A DNA stretch of 64,000 nucleotides from contig SHUF01000004.1 of NCBI GenBank assembly GCA_009694745.1, forward strand, positions 1 to 64,000, in the 5' to 3' direction. Both the position numbers and the translations under genes were made by a program. The notes beneath the pieces are model-generated. The model saw only the letters and a list, made by a program, of their open reading frames with translations, did no database searches and was not told where the DNA came from. The DNA comes from Acidobacteriota bacterium. Lineage in GTDB: Bacteria; Acidobacteriota; Vicinamibacteria; Vicinamibacterales; SCN-69-37. Below, piece after piece: positions 2,784 through 55,490 of this stretch. How positions within the stretch are numbered: the stretch's first letter is position 1; every line of letters starts with the position of its first letter.

Positions 2784-3020
2784 CTACTGGCTCTTGAATG
2801 CCACCGACCCCATGGACTTCTCCCACATGACCGTGAGGCGGCCACCGGTCTTGGTCATGTCCACGAATGCGATGGTGAACTCATCAACTGAATATGGCAG
2901 CGCGTCGAGTTTCATCGGCACGCGGAGGACGTCACGGTCCGGTGTGTAGTTGTAGGCGCCCCAGAGTTCGGCCTTGTTGGCCTGGTCGTATTTCTGTTGC
3001 GCGGGCCATGGGGAAAACAC
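2784..3020 (-). pseudogene. 3' remnant of a DUF2911-type gene
   Basis: ELWGAYNYTPDRDVLRVPMKLDALPYSVDEFTIAFVDMTKTGGRLTVMWEKSMGSVAF matches the C-terminal half of DUF2911. The homology stops at the palindrome arm at 3011-3030. Confidence 0.65.
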
Positions 3021-3030
3021 ACCCGTCCCC
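3011..3030. repeat. solo arm of the GGGGACGGGTGTGTTTTCC palindromic element
   Basis: gggaaaacacacccgtcccc, nearly identical to the arm of the hairpin at 46565-46682. Confidence 0.8.
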
Positions 3031-4140
3031 CTACTTTTCCACCACTTCCCCGTCTGGCGTCAGGATGATCGGCGTGCCGTCCACGAGTTGCTCGCGGTAG
3101 GCGATTCCGAAGATCTGCCACGACGTCACGAAGAGGCCGGCAAGCACAGGACCGATGATGAAGCCGAGCGGCCCAATGACCAGCAGGCCGCCCAGGGTCG
3201 AGAACAGGATGATGAGATCGTGCAGCCGCGTATCGCGGCCGACGAGCCACGGCCGCAACAGGTTGTCCACCGAACCCACAACCAGCGAGCAGAACAGGGC
3301 AAGGCCAATCGCAGTTCCCACTTGACCCGTGGCGAGTAACACGATGCAGGCAGGCACCCAGATGAGCGCCCCACCGATCAGCGGGATGATCGAGAGCACG
3401 ATCATCAGCACCGTCCAGAAGGCCACGTTCGGGATGCCCGCTACCCAGAACGCCAGGCCGGACATCGTGCCTTGAATCAGGCCGATCACCAGGGTCCCCT
3501 TCACCGTGGCCCTGGTGATCGACATGAAGCGCTCCGTGAGCAGCACTTTTTCATCGGCCCGCAATGGCAGGTGGTCCAGGATCTCGCGCAACATCCTCGG
3601 CCCGTCGATCAGGAAGAAAAACATCGCGTACAGTGCGATAAAGAAGTCGAAAATCAACCCCACCGTGCTCAGCGTGCCGCTCGAGAGCGAGGACATCAGG
3701 AACCCGCCGGCTGAGTTCACCACTTCACCGGTCTTGGTCAGGATTTGTTTCCGGTACGGCCTGAGGTACCGGTCATATCCCGGCAGGCGCTGCAGTGTTT
3801 GATCCAGGTACGAAGGCGAGTTGATCGACTTCTCAACAATCGGGCGGACGTTCTCCGTGATTCCCGCCGCCTGACTGACCACGAGTCCGCCTATGCCGAT
3901 CAACGGTCCGATGATCACGACCAACGTCAGCACAACCGTAGCGGCGGCCGCGGCAAGTGTATGCCCGCGCATCAGCGTCAGCAGTCGCAGGTACACCGGC
4001 CGCAACAGGCCCGCGAGCACTGCGGCAGCCACGATCGTCATCAGGAAGGCCTTCAGGATGACCACCATCACCAGGGTCATGCCGACGACGAGGAAGAGCA
4101 GGAAGGCCTTGCGGAACGAGGTATCAGCGGTTACAGCCAT
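3031..4140 (-). CDS. AI-2E family transporter (PF01594-like)
   Basis: Multi-TM protein with characteristic VGSVDNLLRPWLVGRDTRLHDLIILFSTLGGLLVIGPLGFIIGPVLAGLF. Confidence 0.9.
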   Translation of the reverse strand: MAVTADTSFRKAFLLFLVVGMTLVMVVILKAFLMTIVAAAVLAGLLRPVYLRLLTLMRGHTLAAAAATVVLTLVVIIGPLIGIGGLVVSQAAGITENVRPIVEKSINSPSYLDQTLQRLPGYDRYLRPYRKQILTKTGEVVNSAGGFLMSSLSSGTLSTVGLIFDFFIALYAMFFFLIDGPRMLREILDHLPLRADEKVLLTERFMSITRATVKGTLVIGLIQGTMSGLAFWVAGIPNVAFWTVLMIVLSIIPLIGGALIWVPACIVLLATGQVGTAIGLALFCSLVVGSVDNLLRPWLVGRDTRLHDLIILFSTLGGLLVIGPLGFIIGPVLAGLFVTSWQIFGIAYREQLVDGTPIILTPDGEVVEK

Positions 4141-11745: not shown

Positions 11746-12138
11746 ATGTCTTTGTCGCTCGACTGGAAAGGTGATCTCACGTTCGTCAACAGCGCCGGTT
11801 CGCCGGCGATTCATCTTGAGAGCAGCACACCGGGAGTGTCATCTCCAATGCACGTGCTCGCCTACGCCGCAATGGCGTGCATGGGGATGGATCTGGTGCA
11901 CATCCTGCAGAAGGGCCGTCACGACCTGAAGGGTCTCACGGTGCATTTCGACGGCGAGCGCGCCGCCGATTACCCGAAGCGCTACACCGCGATGCACTTG
12001 CGATTCGAGGTCACAGGCGACGTGCCCGAAGACGCCGTCGAGCGCGCCCTGACGCTCTCGCACGAGAAGTACTGCTCGGTGTCCAATTCCATCCGCGCGG
12101 ACATCGAGTTCAAGACTTCCTTCACGGTGACCAAGTAA
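11746..12138 (+). CDS. OsmC family protein
   Basis: SSPMHVLAYAAMACMGMDLVHILQKGRHDLKGLTVHFDGERAADYPKRYT; SHEKYCSVSNSIRADIEF. Confidence 0.9.
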   Translation: MSLSLDWKGDLTFVNSAGSPAIHLESSTPGVSSPMHVLAYAAMACMGMDLVHILQKGRHDLKGLTVHFDGERAADYPKRYTAMHLRFEVTGDVPEDAVERALTLSHEKYCSVSNSIRADIEFKTSFTVTK

Positions 12139-12268
12139 GGGGACGGGTGTCGATCTGTGGAAAAGTCCTGGAAAACGACCTCTGAGGTAGTTTTCGCGGA
12201 GGCCGAATCGAAAACTACCTCAGAGGTCGTTTTTCAGGACTTTTCCACAGATCGACACCCGTCCCCTT
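12137..12268. repeat. long modular inverted repeat (about 60-nt arms, one mismatch seen) containing AAAACGACCTCTGAGGTAGTTTT
   Basis: aaggggacgggtgtcgatctgtggaaaagtcctggaaaacgacctctgaggtagttttcg / cgaaaactacctcagaggtcgtttttcaggacttttccacagatcgacacccgtcccctt. Confidence 0.95.
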
Positions 12269-13317
12269 CCCCCCGCCGCCCGTACATCGACTGGCTGCGC
12301 GGTGTGGCCGTGTTGTTCATGATCGAGTGGCACGTGGTGGATGCGTGGAGCACCGATGCCTCGCGGCAGGGCACCGTGTTCACGGCACTGGCGCTTATCG
12401 GCGGCACGGCCGCGCCGCTGTTCCTGTTTCTCGCCGGCCTGGCCATTCCATTCGCCGCCGCTTCACAGCAGCGAAAAGGGAAGTCGCTGCGTGAGGCCGC
12501 CTGGGCGCTGGAAAAACGCGGCTGGCAAATCTTTCTGTTCGCGCACCTCTTCCGGCTGCAGTCATTCCTCGGCAACCCCTGGGCGCGCGTGGACAGCATC
12601 TTCAAGCCCGACATCCTCAACATCCTGGGTCTCGGCATGGTGGTCACCGCATGGTGCTGGGGGCGCAGTGACGCACTGAAACGCCGCGCGGCTTGGCTGC
12701 TGGTGCCTGCGGCCATCCTGGTCGTGATCACTCCGCTCTCACGAGTCTGGTGGTGGCCCACGGTGCTGCATCCGCGACTCGAGGCGTACATCAGGCCCAA
12801 CGGCGGATGGGGCCAGTTCGCGATCTTTCCCTGGCTGGCCTTTGTTCTGGTAGGGTGTGCCGTCGGCGTTTGGATCGCCCGGTCACGCCCAGCGACCGAA
12901 GAACGCCGCTTCCACGGCCAACTCGCTCAGGCCGGCGCCGCCCTCGTCATCGTCGGCATCATCGCTGCGTTTGTGCCGTCGCCATTCAACTCGAGTTTCT
13001 GGACCACCTCGCTGTCCTTCTTCTTCATCAGGACCGGGGTGATGACGATGGCGCTGGCGGGGGCGTGGTGGTGGATGTCACGAGCGAATGCGCACCGATG
13101 GAGCCCGGTGGTGCTGTTCGGACAGACGTCGCTATTTGTGTACTGGGTGCACGTGGAACTGACGTACGGGATGTTCAGCGCCGCGTGGAAGCGGTCGCTG
13201 ACGCTCGGCGAAACGGCGCTCGCCTATCTCGCGTTCACCGCGCTCATGCTCTTCGCCGCGAAATGGTGGGCGAAGCGCACCGAACGGCCCTGGATACCGG
13301 AGCACCTGCGGGCGTGA
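12157..13317 (+). CDS. multi-TM HGSNAT/DUF1624-like acyltransferase whose N-terminus is encoded by the hairpin
   Basis: MEKSWKTTSEVVFAEAESKTTSEVVFQDFSTDRHPSPSPRRPYIDWLRGVAVLFMIEWHVVDAW...; no in-frame start between the hairpin and IDWLRG. Confidence 0.75.
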   Translation: MEKSWKTTSEVVFAEAESKTTSEVVFQDFSTDRHPSPSPRRPYIDWLRGVAVLFMIEWHVVDAWSTDASRQGTVFTALALIGGTAAPLFLFLAGLAIPFAAASQQRKGKSLREAAWALEKRGWQIFLFAHLFRLQSFLGNPWARVDSIFKPDILNILGLGMVVTAWCWGRSDALKRRAAWLLVPAAILVVITPLSRVWWWPTVLHPRLEAYIRPNGGWGQFAIFPWLAFVLVGCAVGVWIARSRPATEERRFHGQLAQAGAALVIVGIIAAFVPSPFNSSFWTTSLSFFFIRTGVMTMALAGAWWWMSRANAHRWSPVVLFGQTSLFVYWVHVELTYGMFSAAWKRSLTLGETALAYLAFTALMLFAAKWWAKRTERPWIPEHLRA

Positions 13318-32013: not shown

Positions 32014-32787
32014 ATGACACAACTCACGTCCAAAGTTGGCCTCATCGTCGGCGTGGCCAACAAGCGGTCGATTGCCTGGGCGATCGCCCAGGCCGCCTCG
32101 GCCGAAGGCGCGTCACTCATCCTCACGTATGCCGGCGAACGTCTTGAAGAAAACGTCCGCGAGCTTGCGGCAACGTTGCCCAACGTCACAGTGCTGCCGT
32201 GCGACGTGACAGACGATGTGCAGATCGATGCGCTGTTTGAAAACATCCAGACGCAGCATGGTGGGTTGGACTTCATGGTGCATGGGGCCGCGTATGCCCT
32301 GCGCGAAGATCTGGCGGCGCCGTTCTCGCAGACGTCGCGTGAGGGGTTCCGCATCGCCCTCGAGGTGAGCGCCTATTCCCTTGTGGCGCTGACGCGCCGT
32401 GCCGCGCCCCTGATGGCCGCACGCGGAGGCGGCAGCATCGTCACACTGACGTATCTGGGCAGCGACCGCGTGTTCACCAACTACAACGTGATGGGTGTGG
32501 CCAAGGCCGCGCTCGAGGCGTCGGTTCGCTATTTGGCGAGCGACCTCGGCCCGCAGGGCATTCGCGTGAATGCGATCTCGGCCGGGCCGATCAAGACGCT
32601 TGCGGCGTCCGGCGTGTCTGGGTTTTCGTCCATTCTGCAGACCTATCGCGATCGCGCCCCCCTGCGCCGCACGGTGGACACCAGTGAAGTGGCGGCTGCG
32701 GCGATCTTCCTGCTCGGTCCGGCGGGTCGCGGAATTACCGCTGAAGTGCTGATGGTCGACGCCGGCTTCCACGCCATGGGCGTGTAG
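32014..32787 (+). CDS. fabI: enoyl-[acyl-carrier-protein] reductase FabI
   Basis: GLIVGVANKRSIAWAIAQAASAEGA; YLGSDRVFTNYNVMGVAKAALEASVRYLASDLGPQGIRVNAISAGPIKTLAASG. Confidence 0.95.
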   Translation: MTQLTSKVGLIVGVANKRSIAWAIAQAASAEGASLILTYAGERLEENVRELAATLPNVTVLPCDVTDDVQIDALFENIQTQHGGLDFMVHGAAYALREDLAAPFSQTSREGFRIALEVSAYSLVALTRRAAPLMAARGGGSIVTLTYLGSDRVFTNYNVMGVAKAALEASVRYLASDLGPQGIRVNAISAGPIKTLAASGVSGFSSILQTYRDRAPLRRTVDTSEVAAAAIFLLGPAGRGITAEVLMVDAGFHAMGV

Positions 32788-33956
32788 TGTCCGTCACGCG
32801 AACCTTCCTGTCGGGCGCCGATGTGGTCCTGCCGGACCGCGTGGCGTTAGGACTCACGGTGGTGATGGAAGGTGACCGCATCGTGGACCTCACGAGCGGG
32901 CCAAGGGAACTCTCAAACAGCGAACGGCGCGTGGATGCCACCGGGCAACTGGTGGTGCCTGGGTTCGTCGATGTGCACGTGCATGGCGTGATGGGCATCG
33001 ATGTGCTGGATGGGGCCGACGCGGTCTCGGCTGTGGCCCGCGAGCTCTCCCGATTCGGCGTGACCGCTTTTTGCCCGACCTCGATCGCGTGTTCGCCCGA
33101 CACCCTCTCGGCGTTTCTGGATTCGGTGGCGGCCGCGCGAAGCGCACCTGAGCCCGGCGCGGCACGCGTGTTGCGCGCGCACCTCGAAAGCAATTTCATC
33201 AATCCCGAGTACAACGGCGCGCAGCCCGCGGAGTGGCTGTGGACGTACGAGGATGCGACAAAACGACCTCTGAGATCGTTTTTCTCCCCCGACGTCGGCA
33301 TCCTCACCATGGCGCCCGAGATGCCCGGCGGGATGGACTTGCTGCGCGCGGCGGTCCAGGCGGGCATCCGGGTGTCGCTGGGCCACTCCGGCGCCACGTT
33401 CGACCAGGCGCGCGAGGCTATCGACGCGGGCGCCCGTCACGCCACACACCTGTTCAACCGCATGTCGCCCATGGACCATCGTGACCCCGGTCTCGTGGGC
33501 GCCGTGTTGTCGAGCGACGAGGTGGCCGCCGAGCTCATCTGCGACGGCCACCATGTGCACCCCGCCGTGATGCGCGTGGCGATCGCCGCCAAAGGGCATA
33601 GCCGCGTCATGGCGATCACCGACGGCACGTCCGGCTCGGGGCTGCCCCGCGGCACTTGCGCCCGTCTGGGTGGGCGAAACATCACCGTCGGCGACGTGGC
33701 CCGGCTCGACGATGGGACGCTGGCGGGGAGCGTGGCCACCATGGATCGGGTGTTTGCAACCCTCGTGGCCCAGGCGGGGCAGTCGCTCGTCGAGGCCGCC
33801 CTGCTCTGTTCCACCACTCCCGCTCGCGAACTTGGCCTCATCGGGCAAGGGGTGATTGCCCCCGGCCGCCTGGCGGACCTGGCCATTCTGACCCCCGACC
33901 TGCGGGTGGTCCAAACCTGGGTGGGCGGTCGAACGTCGCACCCCGTACGACCGTAG
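32787..33956 (+). CDS. nagA: N-acetylglucosamine-6-phosphate deacetylase
   Basis: VVPGFVDVHVHGVMGIDVLDG; LTMAPEMPGG; VSLGHSGATFDQAREAIDAGARHATHLFNRMSPMDHRDPGLVGA; ICDGHHVHPAVMR. Confidence 0.94.
   Translation: MSVTRTFLSGADVVLPDRVALGLTVVMEGDRIVDLTSGPRELSNSERRVDATGQLVVPGFVDVHVHGVMGIDVLDGADAVSAVARELSRFGVTAFCPTSIACSPDTLSAFLDSVAAARSAPEPGAARVLRAHLESNFINPEYNGAQPAEWLWTYEDATKRPLRSFFSPDVGILTMAPEMPGGMDLLRAAVQAGIRVSLGHSGATFDQAREAIDAGARHATHLFNRMSPMDHRDPGLVGAVLSSDEVAAELICDGHHVHPAVMRVAIAAKGHSRVMAITDGTSGSGLPRGTCARLGGRNITVGDVARLDDGTLAGSVATMDRVFATLVAQAGQSLVEAALLCSTTPARELGLIGQGVIAPGRLADLAILTPDLRVVQTWVGGRTSHPVRP
33260..33283. repeat. copy of the AAACGACCTCTGAGGTCGTTT palindrome inside nagA (one mismatch)
   Basis: aaaacgacctctgagatcgttttt, read in frame as KRPLRSFF. 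Confidence 0.9.
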
Positions 33957-39158: not shown

Positions 39159-39221
39159 AAACGACCTCTGAGGTAGTTTTTTTCTCCCCTCTGAAGAAAA
39201 AAACTACCTCAGAGGTCGTTT
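39159..39221. repeat. perfect 27-nt-arm inverted repeat containing AAACGACCTCTGAGGTAGTTTTTTT
   Basis: aaacgacctctgaggtagtttttttct / agaaaaaaactacctcagaggtcgttt, about 9-nt loop. Confidence 0.95.
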
Positions 39222-39225
39222 TCGC

Positions 39226-39897
39226 TCATTTGTTGGGGCGGACGAGGACCTTCGACGCCGCGCGGGTGCCGATGGTGGTGTGGCGATCGGCGTCAGACCG
39301 CAGGCGGACGGCGTCGGCGGCTGAATCGCGCGCCTCGATCACCACCGACCGTCCCGGCATGAGGTCTCGCTGCTCGACGAAGCGCAGAAACTCCGCGTCC
39401 TGATCGATCACGCGCGTAATCACCAACGGGGTTTCGAGTGGCGCGTTCAGCAGGTCCACAGATTCGCGATGCGAGATGGTGCCTTCCGCGTTTGGAATGG
39501 GGTCGCCGTGCGGGTCCACTTCTGGACGGCCGAGCATCTCGTCGATGCGATCGATCAGCTGCTCGGATACCGCATGTTCCAGGCGTTCCGCCTCGTCATG
39601 CACTTCGGCCCAGCTCATCCCCAGCACTTTGACGAGAAACAGCTCGATCAGCCGATGCCGCCGCAACACGAGCGACGCCAGCTTTTCTCCGGCGTCCGTC
39701 AGCCGCACACCCATGTACGGCTCGTAGTGCACCAGCCCTGACTCCGACAGCGCCTTCATCATCGTCGTCGCGGTGCCAGGCACAACGCCGAGCGCCGACG
39801 CCAGTTGGCCCATGGGGACCAGTGACGGGCTGGTCTGGGCGGCCTGCGCGAGGTGGATGGTCTTGAGGTAGTTCTCCACCGTTTGTGACGGAAGCAT
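39226..39897 (-). CDS. DtxR/MntR family metal-dependent transcriptional regulator
   Basis: TVENYLKTIHLAQ; GTATTMMKALSESGLVHYEPYMGVRLTDAGEKLASLVLRRHRLIELFLVKVLGMSWAEVHDEAERLEHAVSE. Confidence 0.93.
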   Translation of the reverse strand: MLPSQTVENYLKTIHLAQAAQTSPSLVPMGQLASALGVVPGTATTMMKALSESGLVHYEPYMGVRLTDAGEKLASLVLRRHRLIELFLVKVLGMSWAEVHDEAERLEHAVSEQLIDRIDEMLGRPEVDPHGDPIPNAEGTISHRESVDLLNAPLETPLVITRVIDQDAEFLRFVEQRDLMPGRSVVIEARDSAADAVRLRSDADRHTTIGTRAASKVLVRPNK

Positions 39898-41060: not shown

Positions 41061-42308
41061 CTACGTTCGCAGCACGCCCACCGCGCCGGATGCAGCCAGG
41101 GCAGCAATTCGTTCAGGCGCGTACCCGAGGTCGCTTTCGAGCACGGAGGCCGTATGCTCGCCCAGTCGCGGCGGCGGCGTGCGCACCGCCCCAGGCGTTT
41201 CCGAGAGCTTGACCGGCACACCAAGCACCTGCAAAGGACCGATGGTGGGATGGACGACCGACTCGACCATGGCCCTGGCCAGGATCTGGGGATCCTCGAG
41301 CGCTTCTCCCACCGAACGCACGGCGCCGCACGAGACGCCGGCCTCACGAAGGCGCGTGGCCCATCCCGCAGCGGTATCAGTGGCCAGCGCGCGGTTGACG
41401 ATCAGTTCAAGCGCGTCGATGTGCTCGACGCGACCGGTATTGGTGGCGAATCTGGCGTCGGCGCCCACCTGCGGGAGTCCGGCGACGACACAGAAGCGCT
41501 GGAACTGGTCGTCGTTGCCCACGGCAAGGACCAGCACACCGTCGGCAGTGGCAAACGTGTTGTACGGCGCGATGGCCGCGTGTTTGTTGCCGAGGCGATT
41601 GGGCGAGACGCCGGTGGCGAGATAACGCCCGGCCTGATAGGTCAGCAGTGCCGCGCACGAATCCAGCAGGCTGATGTCCACATGCTGGCCTTTGCCCGTG
41701 CGGCCTTTGGCAATCATCGCGAGCAGCATGCCCTGGAACGCAAACATGCCGGCCGCGATGTCGGCAATCGCCACTCCCAGACGCACCGCAGGACCGTCGC
41801 GCGCGCCGGTCACACTCATCAGTCCGCCCTCGGCTTGAATCACCGCGTCGTAGCCCGCTTCTTCTCGTCGTGGTCCGGTGTGCCCGAAGCTCGAGATTGA
41901 GACGTAAATCAATCCCGGATGCTTTTCCGAGACAGCGCCGTAACCCAGGCCACGATCATCCAGCGTGCCGGGCCGGAAGTTCTCGGCGAGGACGTCGGCG
42001 CGGGCGATGAGGGCGTCGAGCACGGCGCGGCCATCGGGCGTGGTGTAGTCGAGCGCCACACTTTCCTTGTTGCGATTGACGCTCAGGTAATACGAGCTCT
42101 CGCCTTCAAGGAACGGCGGACCCCACGCGCGGGTGTCGTCGCCGCGGCGCGGGTGCTCGATCTTGATGACGCGGGCGCCCATGTCTGCGGCGAGCATCGT
42201 GCAGTACGGACCCGACAGGACGCGCGTCAGGTCGAGGATGGTGACGCCAGAGAGTGGTCCCGTGCTTGGATCGGAGCCGTTTGAAACGACCTCAGAGGTC
42301 GTTTTCAT
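41061..42308 (-). CDS. CaiB/BaiF-type (class III) CoA transferase with palindrome-encoded N-terminus
   Basis: MKTTSEVVSNGSDPSTGPLSGVTILDLTRVLSGPYCTMLAADMGARVIKIEHPRRGDDTRAWGPPF... Confidence 0.93.
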   Translation of the reverse strand: MKTTSEVVSNGSDPSTGPLSGVTILDLTRVLSGPYCTMLAADMGARVIKIEHPRRGDDTRAWGPPFLEGESSYYLSVNRNKESVALDYTTPDGRAVLDALIARADVLAENFRPGTLDDRGLGYGAVSEKHPGLIYVSISSFGHTGPRREEAGYDAVIQAEGGLMSVTGARDGPAVRLGVAIADIAAGMFAFQGMLLAMIAKGRTGKGQHVDISLLDSCAALLTYQAGRYLATGVSPNRLGNKHAAIAPYNTFATADGVLVLAVGNDDQFQRFCVVAGLPQVGADARFATNTGRVEHIDALELIVNRALATDTAAGWATRLREAGVSCGAVRSVGEALEDPQILARAMVESVVHPTIGPLQVLGVPVKLSETPGAVRTPPPRLGEHTASVLESDLGYAPERIAALAASGAVGVLRT

Positions 42309-42344
42309 GGTGTCCCCTCTGAAAACGACCTCTGAGGTCGTTTC
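42283..42344. repeat. pair of AAACGACCTCWGAGGTCGTTT palindromes forming a perfect 24-bp inverted repeat across a gene junction
   Basis: gaaacgacctcagaggtcgttttc-atggtgtcccctct-gaaaacgacctctgaggtcgtttc. Confidence 0.95.
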
Positions 42345-43387
42345 GGCACCGCTTTCGACGTCGCGTTCGCCACCGCGATCAAATCCACAAACAGCGCGTA
42401 CGCGGTCTTCTCCAGCCCTCCGTCGCGTTGTGTGATCACCACACGTCCCAGAATGTCCGTTTCGATCTCCAGAGCGTTCGCCTGTCCTTCGAGGCTCCCG
42501 AGCGGGTCACTCACGTCCAGGGTTTCCAGCTGCACACTTGCACGCACGCCAACATTCGTCCGCGTGGCCCGGCCCACCAGCTTCACGTGGTGGCCCACTG
42601 CAACCGCGGCCAAAAGGCGCGGGGCGTCGACAGCCGAAATTCCTTCGCGCTCCACATCGCGCGGCGTGATGCCGGCATCCATCCAGACGTTGGCCATCGC
42701 CGCCACCTTCGCGGCCGCGTCCCAGCCATCCACATCCAGTGACGCATCGGCCTCCGCCACCCCGGCGGCCTGCATGCGCGCAAGGGCCGCATCGAAGGCT
42801 TCGCCGCGTTCCATGGCCGTAAGAATGTGGTTGGTGGTGCTGTTCACGACGCCGCGAAACGAGCCGATTTTCACTCCCGGCATGGTCTCTCGCACGAGGT
42901 TGAAGATCGGGATGCCGTCCATGACCGCACCTTCGAAGAGGAACTGCAGGCCGGCGGCACGAGCCTCGGCAGCAAGCGCGCGATACGCATGCGCCACGGG
43001 TCCCTTGTTCGCGCTGATGACATGCGCGCCTGCGGCAAACGCCGCCCGGATGTGAGAAATCGCGGGCTCTCCAGACTGCACATCCAGAGGTGTCGTCTCA
43101 ACCATTACGCGGGCCTCGGTGTCGAGGGAACCAAGCTGGTGGATGAGGTCATGTGCTGTGAGCGATGCCGAGCCTGGCCCAACCAGGCCGCCGCCGGCCA
43201 CTCGTTGTGCCGCTTGTACGGTGTCGAGGCCCGCCCTGTCGAACACGGCGCCATGATGACCAGTCGCGATCGCCACCACGGTGACCTCGATGCCTCGCCC
43301 GTCGAGCGCCGGCTTGAGTTCCTGCAACAGAAGCGCAAACCTGCGGCCGACGTGGCCGAACCCGATGAGTGCCAGCGCAATACGCAA
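42305..43387 (-). CDS. hom: homoserine dehydrogenase
   Basis: ALALIGFGHVGRRFALLL; VISANKGPVAHAYRAL; FRGVVNSTTNHILTAMERGEAFDAALARMQAAGVAEADASLDVDGWDAAAKVAAMANVWM. Confidence 0.92.
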   Translation of the reverse strand: MRIALALIGFGHVGRRFALLLQELKPALDGRGIEVTVVAIATGHHGAVFDRAGLDTVQAAQRVAGGGLVGPGSASLTAHDLIHQLGSLDTEARVMVETTPLDVQSGEPAISHIRAAFAAGAHVISANKGPVAHAYRALAAEARAAGLQFLFEGAVMDGIPIFNLVRETMPGVKIGSFRGVVNSTTNHILTAMERGEAFDAALARMQAAGVAEADASLDVDGWDAAAKVAAMANVWMDAGITPRDVEREGISAVDAPRLLAAVAVGHHVKLVGRATRTNVGVRASVQLETLDVSDPLGSLEGQANALEIETDILGRVVITQRDGGLEKTAYALFVDLIAVANATSKAVPKRPQRSFSEGTP

Positions 43388-45420: not shown

Positions 45421-46566
45421 GTGACAGCCCCGGTCACAGCGCGAGTCACGGCATTCGATCGCCTTCGAGGACTGATTATGGTCCTGATGGCGATCGATCA
45501 CGCGGCTTTTTTCATTGCGCGTGTGCATCCTGCCGAGACCTGGGCGGCCCCGCCGCCCTACTACGCCGACGTGCCGGCGTTCCTCACGCGATGGCTCACA
45601 CACCTGTGCGCGCCCGGCTTCTTCATGCTGATGGGCATAGGCCTGGTGTGGTTTGCCGAGAGCCGGGGCCCGGCAGGATGGTCCTCCGGCCGGATCACGC
45701 GGTTCTTTGTCACGCGTGGCGCCATGTTGCTGCTCGTGCAGCACGTGCTGGAGAACCCAGCGTGGTTGCTGGGGTTGGCGTCGATGGACCCGACGGTTGG
45801 GGCCGCCCAGCCCGGGTTGCCGGGTGTGCCTGCCAATGTCATGTTGGCCTTTGCGGTTCTTAGCGCACTCGGCATCGCCATGATCTTCTGGGGCATGTGC
45901 CGGCGGCTGCCGCTGTGGGCGATCGGTGCGGTCTGTGGCGTGGCGTTCTGGTTGAGTCGTGTGATGCTGCCGGACATTTCGGAAAGCGCCGAGGCCATTC
46001 CCGTCTGGAAGTTGCTGCTCTTCGTCCCCGGTCAAGGTGGCATTGTCCAAAACATGTATCCGTGGGTGATCTGGCTTGTGCCGGCCGGCGTTGGGGTCGC
46101 GCTCGGTCGCGTGTTCTTGCGAGAGCCACAGCGCGTCAGTGCCGTGGCTGCGGCGGCGGCGGTTGTCGGCGTCACTACATTTGTCATGATGCGACTCGCA
46201 GGTCTGGGCGACGTGCATACGCCTGCCGATGGTGTGATGGGCTGGTTGAGCGTGACGAAGTACCCGCCCTCGGAGAGTTTCCTGGCGCTCATGCTCGGAC
46301 TGGACCTGGCGATCATCGCGGCGCTCTCGAAGTGGCCGTCACGTTGGCTGGCCCCGCTCGGGGTCTTCGGCCGCGTGCCGTTCTTCTTCTACCTCGCGCA
46401 CCTCTGGGCGTTTGGCGTTCTCAGTTGGGCGTTCCCGTCAGGCACGTCGTTTGCGGTGATGTATCTGGTATGGGCCGTCGTGATCGCCGCGCTCTACCCC
46501 GCCTGCGCCGCCTACGCCCGCTTCAAGTTCGGGAAACCTTCGACATCGGCTTGGAGGATTTTTTAG
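45421..46566 (+). CDS. multi-TM HGSNAT/DUF1624-like acyltransferase (paralogue class of 12157-13317)
   Basis: ARVTAFDRLRGLIMVLMAIDHAAFFIARVHPAETW; C-terminal FGRVPFFFYLAHLWAFGVLSW. Confidence 0.83.
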   Translation: MTAPVTARVTAFDRLRGLIMVLMAIDHAAFFIARVHPAETWAAPPPYYADVPAFLTRWLTHLCAPGFFMLMGIGLVWFAESRGPAGWSSGRITRFFVTRGAMLLLVQHVLENPAWLLGLASMDPTVGAAQPGLPGVPANVMLAFAVLSALGIAMIFWGMCRRLPLWAIGAVCGVAFWLSRVMLPDISESAEAIPVWKLLLFVPGQGGIVQNMYPWVIWLVPAGVGVALGRVFLREPQRVSAVAAAAAVVGVTTFVMMRLAGLGDVHTPADGVMGWLSVTKYPPSESFLALMLGLDLAIIAALSKWPSRWLAPLGVFGRVPFFFYLAHLWAFGVLSWAFPSGTSFAVMYLVWAVVIAALYPACAAYARFKFGKPSTSAWRIF

Positions 46567-46682
46567 GGGGACGGGTGTGTTTTCCACAGAAACGCTCGAA
46601 ATGGGGACAGGTCTCTCACGGAACCAGAAGAGAGACCTGTCCCCATTTCGAGCGTTTCTGTGGAAAACACACCCGTCCCCCT
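46565..46682. repeat. long perfect inverted repeat (about 52-nt arms) AGGGGGACGGGTGTGTTTTCCACAGAAACGCTCGAAATGGGGACAGGTCTCT
   Basis: Both arms read directly; loop cacggaaccagaag. Confidence 0.96.
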
Positions 46683-55443: not shown

Positions 55444-55490
55444 GCCTCCGCCAAGGCTACGGCGAGGCAAGCCCTGGACCCTGGACCCTA
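55444..55490. repeat. inverted copy of the 2131-2188 dispersed module with GGACCCT units
   Basis: gcctccgccaaggctacggcgaggcaagccctggaccctggaccc. Confidence 0.88.

Follow-up and report, generated by a model that had tools for sequence, protein, structure and literature searches.

A dispersed composite palindrome as the probable source of an acyltransferase start codon in an Acidobacteriota genome

In the stretch of Acidobacteriota DNA analysed here (64,000 nt, referred to as the window), a long hairpin lies at the junction of an osmC-like gene and a gene for a membrane acyltransferase, which raises the question of where translation of the second gene begins and how the hairpin came to be there. 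The presence of such a hairpin had been noted in the original prediction, and an inverted-repeat search of the window located two 60-nt arms that are 98% complementary and separated by a 12-nt spacer (Table 1). At the single mismatch, the left arm has TGG and the complement of the right arm TGA, which corresponds to a G.U wobble in RNA; a hairpin with perfect TGA arms would place a stop codon in the acyltransferase frame. A six-frame check of the hairpin showed that the acyltransferase frame is the only open one. Folding of the leader, proposed along with the original prediction, revealed strong structure (-163.8 kcal/mol for RNA 12100-12360, z -14.4), and none of 200 shuffled sequences folded equally well. 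An intrinsic terminator was also considered but ruled out, since a T run is absent on either side; the sequence directly following the right arm on the + strand is CCCCCCGCCGCCC. No match to an Rfam family was detected anywhere in the window.

For comparison, genomes of relatives were included, designated by G numbers; G000 is the 2.79-Mb genome from which the window is derived, and C numbers denote contigs. That the GTG at 12157 is the only upstream in-frame start proved correct for standard start codons preceding the motif RRxYIDWLRG. The codons from 12157 to 12268, upstream of this core, consist of element-derived sequence and are predicted to specify a leader, VEKSWK...RHPSP (TTSEVVFAEAESK is an example peptide). 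The in-frame starts left downstream of 12268, GTG 12304, GTG 12310, TTG 12313, and ATG 12319, are all located within the core, and the residues of the motif, x excepted, are invariant across ten aligned orthologues. Comparison with six congeners supports the view that the start codon and the first ~37 predicted codons of the acyltransferase are derived from the element, where ~35 codons had been proposed. The osmC stop codon TAA (12136-12138) indeed overlaps the first two bases of the arm, but it is not made by the element. G001 and G006 have TAG in this place, and the stop is therefore ancestral.

Table 1. Features of the osmC/acyltransferase junction and of other element-bearing sites in the window
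Feature	Position	Strand	Evidence or remark
osmC-like gene	11746..12138	+	Pfam PF02566; stop position conserved in G001/G006
Hairpin left arm	12137..12196	+	Inverted-repeat search, 98% complementary
Weak Shine-Dalgarno-like AAGGGGA	12137..12143	+	Putative, sequence inspection; 13 nt before GTG
Element A left half (GGGGACGGGTGTCGATCTGTGGAAAAGTC)	12139..12167	+	Pattern search, 2 mismatches to A pattern
GTG start codon of acyltransferase (predicted)	12157..12159	+	Within element A; only standard in-frame start before core
Acyltransferase (HGSNAT_cat / Acyl_transf_3)	12157..13317	+	Pfam PF07786 and PF01757 from residue 40 on
Element C first unit (GAAAACGACCTCTGAGGTAGTTTT)	12171..12194	+	In A apex; matches C copies at 39159-39230, 42283-42344, and others
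Hairpin spacer/loop (12 nt)	12197..12208	+	Inverted-repeat search
Hairpin right arm	12209..12268	+	Inverted-repeat search
Element C second unit, inverted	12211..12235	+	Matches other C copies of the genome
Element A right half	12238..12266	-	Pattern search
nagA	32787-33956	+	Host gene of in-frame C unit
Single C unit in frame inside nagA	33260..33283	+	Region 33249-33305; encodes DATKRPLRSF
C-type hairpin, intergenic	39159..39221		Empty site in G001
CoA-transferase gene	41061-42308	-	3' partner of ATGA junction
C-type hairpin over hom/CoA-transferase ATGA overlap	42283..42344	-	ATGA in loop
hom	42305-43387	-	5' partner of ATGA junction

By the repeats matched in its arms, the hairpin is a composite palindrome, with one element (A) on the outside and another (C) nested in the apex of the first. 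Element A, GGGGACGGGTGTCGATCTGTGGAAAA, is present at both ends of the hairpin, and element C consists of two inverted copies of AAAACGACCTCTGAGGT(A/C)GTTTT. A also carries GGGGACGG, which is one base away from the GGGGWSAS motif of some TIRs. Both elements are dispersed through the genome. Pattern searches detected 17 half-copies of A in G000, 24 in G001, and 22 in G006, while reversed-pattern controls yielded 0. A, C, and a further family, B, are multi-copy and occur mostly as inverted doublets flanking a short loop, although some C copies are single units. Nesting is common, with C inside A at C2, C18, C42, and C79, and A together with B at C43. At lpxK, the sister genome contains A alone and G000 contains A with B inside at the same place, both in frame, suggesting that a hairpin already in place received an insertion at its apex. 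Outside the window, 53 clusters were found in G000, 28 of them intergenic, 17 inside called genes, and 8 overlapping gene ends, counts that rest on the copies retrieved and on a home-made gene caller using codon scores.

The window harbors other repeats as well. Positions 46565-46682 form a perfect 53-bp hairpin that belongs to yet another family (GGGGACGGGTGTGTTTTCCACAGAAACGC, GGGGACAGGTCTCTC inside). G001 shares the right arm of this hairpin, and half a copy stands alone at 3009-3033. Another dispersed repeat, GTCCAGGGTCC / GGACCCTGGAC, is present at 2131-2192, 2736-2766, and 55444-55479.

Inspection of the same junction in relatives revealed a varied picture. The closest genome, G001 (Acidobacteria MAG F1-60-MAGs081, 92% protein identity), is hairpin-free at this site (AAGTAGGCGGCCGGGTGCGTCGCCCC), and its GTG start lies 8 nt past the osmC stop. 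In G006, A follows the osmC stop immediately, and the corresponding GTG of the element is in frame; in G004, a decayed A has an ATG in frame at the equivalent position of the element. The distance from start to core is 120, 99, and 60 nt in G000, G006, and G004, respectively, and the frame is kept despite these differences in insert length. The comparison of orthologues, suggested originally as a way to the ancestral start, thus yielded the same element codon (GTG, GTG, and ATG) in G000, G006, and G004 and a start beside the osmC stop in G001. In G005 and G003, the junction is occupied by family B, and a homologous ATG in the loop is in frame (MTHPKKAPDAFSGRRTYIDW in G005, MTPTKKTPDVMSTSRRTYIDW in G003, which has a second ATG at the hairpin edge). 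An element-borne start followed by an open frame is therefore found in five out of five congeners with a hairpin. G011, a member of another genus, contains a third hairpin family at the junction, with the start just downstream.

Outside the genus, the acyltransferase start is located between -8 and +10 nt from the osmC stop in eight of 13 relatives with an adjacent osmC, for example at -4 in G012, G036, and G023 and at -8 in G028, G016, and G038. Judged from these arrangements, in the ancestral layout the acyltransferase start overlaps the osmC stop or lies right beside it. In the tree, G000 and G001 group with G004 and G006, separate from G003 and G005. The simplest reading would be a single gain of A, its loss in G001, and a single gain of B; separate gains of A at the junction are possible because sites are reused by the elements. 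The genomes compared are assemblies, several of them fragmented, and in G002 a contig ends within the junction. Upstream of the acyltransferase gene of G004 (C13, L061), osmC is cut by an internal in-frame deletion to an ORF of 15 codons (MSWSLDFVTSFTIAK*), which keeps its own start and stop; an intact osmC is located elsewhere in that genome (L162).

The reading we favor, with a probability of roughly 0.8, is that a non-autonomous mobile palindrome displaced the original start and that the acyltransferase is now started at the GTG of the element, with a leader of ~37 residues. Composite anatomy, dispersal, open frame, the start position shared among relatives, and the element-free sister are seen in the sequence; that translation truly begins at GTG 12157 is what we infer. 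In this scenario, an element of the REP/TIR type, A, would have inserted into the short junction in an ancestor within the genus, displacing a start that coincided with the osmC stop or adjoined it, and its apex would later have been invaded by C. Ribosomes would start at GTG 12157 and read through both arms, giving the leader in front of RRxYIDWLRG. In the finished transcript this GTG is fully paired (unpaired probability 0.0), but as long as transcription has not reached about 12240, the region around the start is partly accessible (0.2-0.5 at most of the lengths tested); beyond that point it is closed. For this reason we favor initiation while the RNA is still being made and the right arm has yet to be transcribed; translating ribosomes could then hold the arms apart. 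Ribosomes ending osmC translation 18 nt upstream might assist. However, published tests found that termination-reinitiation varies at distances of +11 to +20 nt and almost disappears near 20 nt (PMC10666635); given this and the pairing of the GTG, initiation at +18 need not be efficient.

The buried start could also indicate that the hairpin is an untranslated element of post-transcriptional control and that translation starts within the core at GTG 12304 or ATG 12319, and Di Nocera et al. hold that many REPs at 5' ends are mis-annotated as coding (PMC3733652). A start in the core would, however, remove the invariant RRxYIDWLRG, G001 starts just ahead of the core with its own GTG, and the congeners carrying hairpins combine element-borne starts with open frames, making this alternative unlikely. 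Somewhat more weight, though still well short of an even chance, is given to a hairpin that is coding and in addition a selected regulatory module, tying acyltransferase synthesis to osmC translation or to the timing of transcription and translation. Such a role would account for the recurrence of unrelated hairpins at the junction, with three families in G000/G004/G006, G003/G005, and G011, and the start region that closes as transcription proceeds would fit. Recurrence is also expected, though, if insertions at such junctions merely do the least damage; G001 and the outgroups manage without a hairpin, and the +18 spacing is marginal for coupling.

Strong structure covering the start might alternatively mean that the insertion disabled the acyltransferase and that the gene is untranslated. 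Since 386 codons are free of stops, dN/dS between G000 and G001 is 0.095, and frames are kept in element-bearing relatives, this is very unlikely; the acyltransferase is under purifying selection. Finally, long, nearly perfect inverted repeats can be fold-back artefacts of assembly or amplification, and contigs do break at these repeats (G002 C476, G000 C28). The same element is found at the same place in the separate assemblies G004 and G006, however, and the arms hold known dispersed modules in defined nesting, which leaves hardly any room for this explanation.

The displacement of the start by a palindrome, as favored here, would not be an isolated case. Across the genomes compared, hairpins at coding junctions or in frame are a genus-wide habit. 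The ATGA junction of hom and a CoA-transferase gene is straddled by a hairpin in five of seven species. The family is C in G000 and G002 and B in G001; G003 has a variant of B there, and G005 has D. The last codons of hom fall in one arm and the first codons of the CoA-transferase gene in the other, so that the N-termini read MKTTSEVVS, MKKTPGIFS, MKKPPDVFS, and VKIASELIS. Where hairpins are missing (G004, G006, G008, G011, and G013), the genes overlap by 4 nt or nearly so. At the codons of nagA that hold a single C unit in the window, G001 contains a full B hairpin (QKETSGVFFADGSTKKIPDIF), and GTCCAGGGTCC-type repeats are located at about that site in G011. In-frame elements were also detected inside queA, uvrC, metH, mutS2, and genes for a protein kinase and an epimerase, among others, and Pfam matches to the Queuosine_synth, UvrC RNaseH, and Pkinase domains extend across the inserts. 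In uvrC and metH, G000 has C and G001 has A at the same site, and uvrC of G002 also has A. For an EamA gene (C66), the only possible start is inside an A hairpin, and MBL-fold genes have A at their 5' end in four species. At C55 of G000 (L043:1313-1469), B and A hairpins fuse meaB with a glyoxalase domain resembling methylmalonyl-CoA epimerase into one ORF of 506 codons, the second part of which might have its own start at a GTG in A.

Reading frames of B are biased. Its left arms are read as EKTSGVFF in 16 of 20 cases (p = 2.5e-5) and its right arms as KKTPDVFS in 19 of 24 (p = 5e-6), counts that include sites from related genomes, which are only partly independent, and that rely on the home-made caller for the genes. 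All six frames of B are stop-free, and since spurious reading frames would be used uniformly, the bias speaks against them. For A, no frame bias could be established with counts of 2/1/5 and 5/2/2, the copies being too few. A dedicated stop-free design of the elements was dropped as a candidate, because it was not significant compared to dinucleotide shuffles. Taken further, and only tentatively, palindromic transposable repeats could be portable translation junctions: A (GTGGAAAA) and B (TTTTTCGATGAAAAAG, with an intrinsic ATGA) would bring an internal start and repeatedly replace the stop/start overlaps of operons, and families would compete and swap at coding junctions and condition downstream translation.

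Regarding mobility, eleven Y1_Tnp genes were found in the genus. B palindromes bracket the Y1 transposase of G000 C24 as well as one of G002 and one of G003, and D palindromes bracket one of G005. The REP-associated transposase model NCBIfam NF047646 yields 74.5 bits, below its cut-off of 80, Pfam Y1_Tnp scores above its own cut-off, and inspection detected no unpaired GTAG/CGTC tag beside the flanking B and D palindromes. Neither A nor C is located beside any of the eleven Y1 genes; both were presumably moved by a Y1 (REP-type) transposase. At G000 C24 (L056:1851-1901), the C-terminus of the transposase (EKTSGVFFDEKGTRRLF) is encoded by its own flanking B palindrome. A second type of Y1 transposase without flanking palindrome is present at L057 (G000 C65), L153, and L155; the one at L057, which may be domesticated, has genes on both sides that resemble those of purine synthesis.

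It had been left open whether palindromic repeats annotated at the start of genes are translated, most N-terminal REPs being suspected annotation errors. Orthologues with a different hairpin or none at one junction are natural alleles, by which this question becomes directly testable, and the locus offers a tractable case of an operon surviving the loss of an overlapping start codon. It also cautions that elements may be the source of start sites in such genomes, and a behavior known mainly from Rickettsia appears in a free-living phylum.

Translated palindromes have been described in Rickettsia (RPE), as enterobacterial RU elements, and in REP-rich genomes including Opitutus (PMC2229807, PMC2759123, PMC3733652). 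As far as precedents for element-supplied start codons are concerned, RPE, REP/TIR, ERIC/RU, and nematomorph repeats were the only ones found in the literature; orthologue-supported supply of a start codon, ATGA junctions in a loop, and the exchange of one family for another at a single coding site were not encountered there. Similar to the nematomorph mitochondrial palindromes (PMC6649704), both arms of long hairpins encode protein, but those arms specify a conserved protein core, and the ones described here are members of dispersed mobile-element families. The ERIC/RU repeats (Delihas, PMC2759123) are likewise small and MITE-like and form in-frame fusions with the ends of genes, among them an N-terminal one (wbbJ); the difference is the repeated supply of start codons supported by comparison.

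Parallels also exist to REPIN/REP sequences with their RAYT and to the TIR repeats of TIRtrons, the latter known also from Acidobacteria (PMC3116915, PMC3733652). Inverted doublets forming hairpins are dispersed in both cases, and B and D lie on both sides of Y1 transposases; untagged flanking repeats are termed TIRs (PMC3733652). REPs inside genes and REPs supplying TAG stops have been reported (PMC3733652), but REPINs are mainly extragenic and N-terminal REPs are thought to be largely misannotated. The extragenic placement of REPINs is not seen here, 25 of the 53 clusters of G000 overlapping called genes, and orthologues support a start internal to the element. RPEs (Ogata et al.), as summarized in reviews (PMC2229807, PMC10969869), are mobile palindromes that have inserted in frame into numerous unrelated conserved genes, where they are translated. 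The repeats described here resemble them in their in-frame position in conserved genes, a characteristic peptide frame, and some N-terminal locations. They differ in phylum, in the link of families B and D to Y1 transposases, in nested composites, element-borne starts, and stop/start overlaps in the loop, and in different families at one site in sister species. The junction system may thus be best described as REP/TIR palindromes that would be translated like RPEs and are unusual in acting as a start or stop/start cassette.
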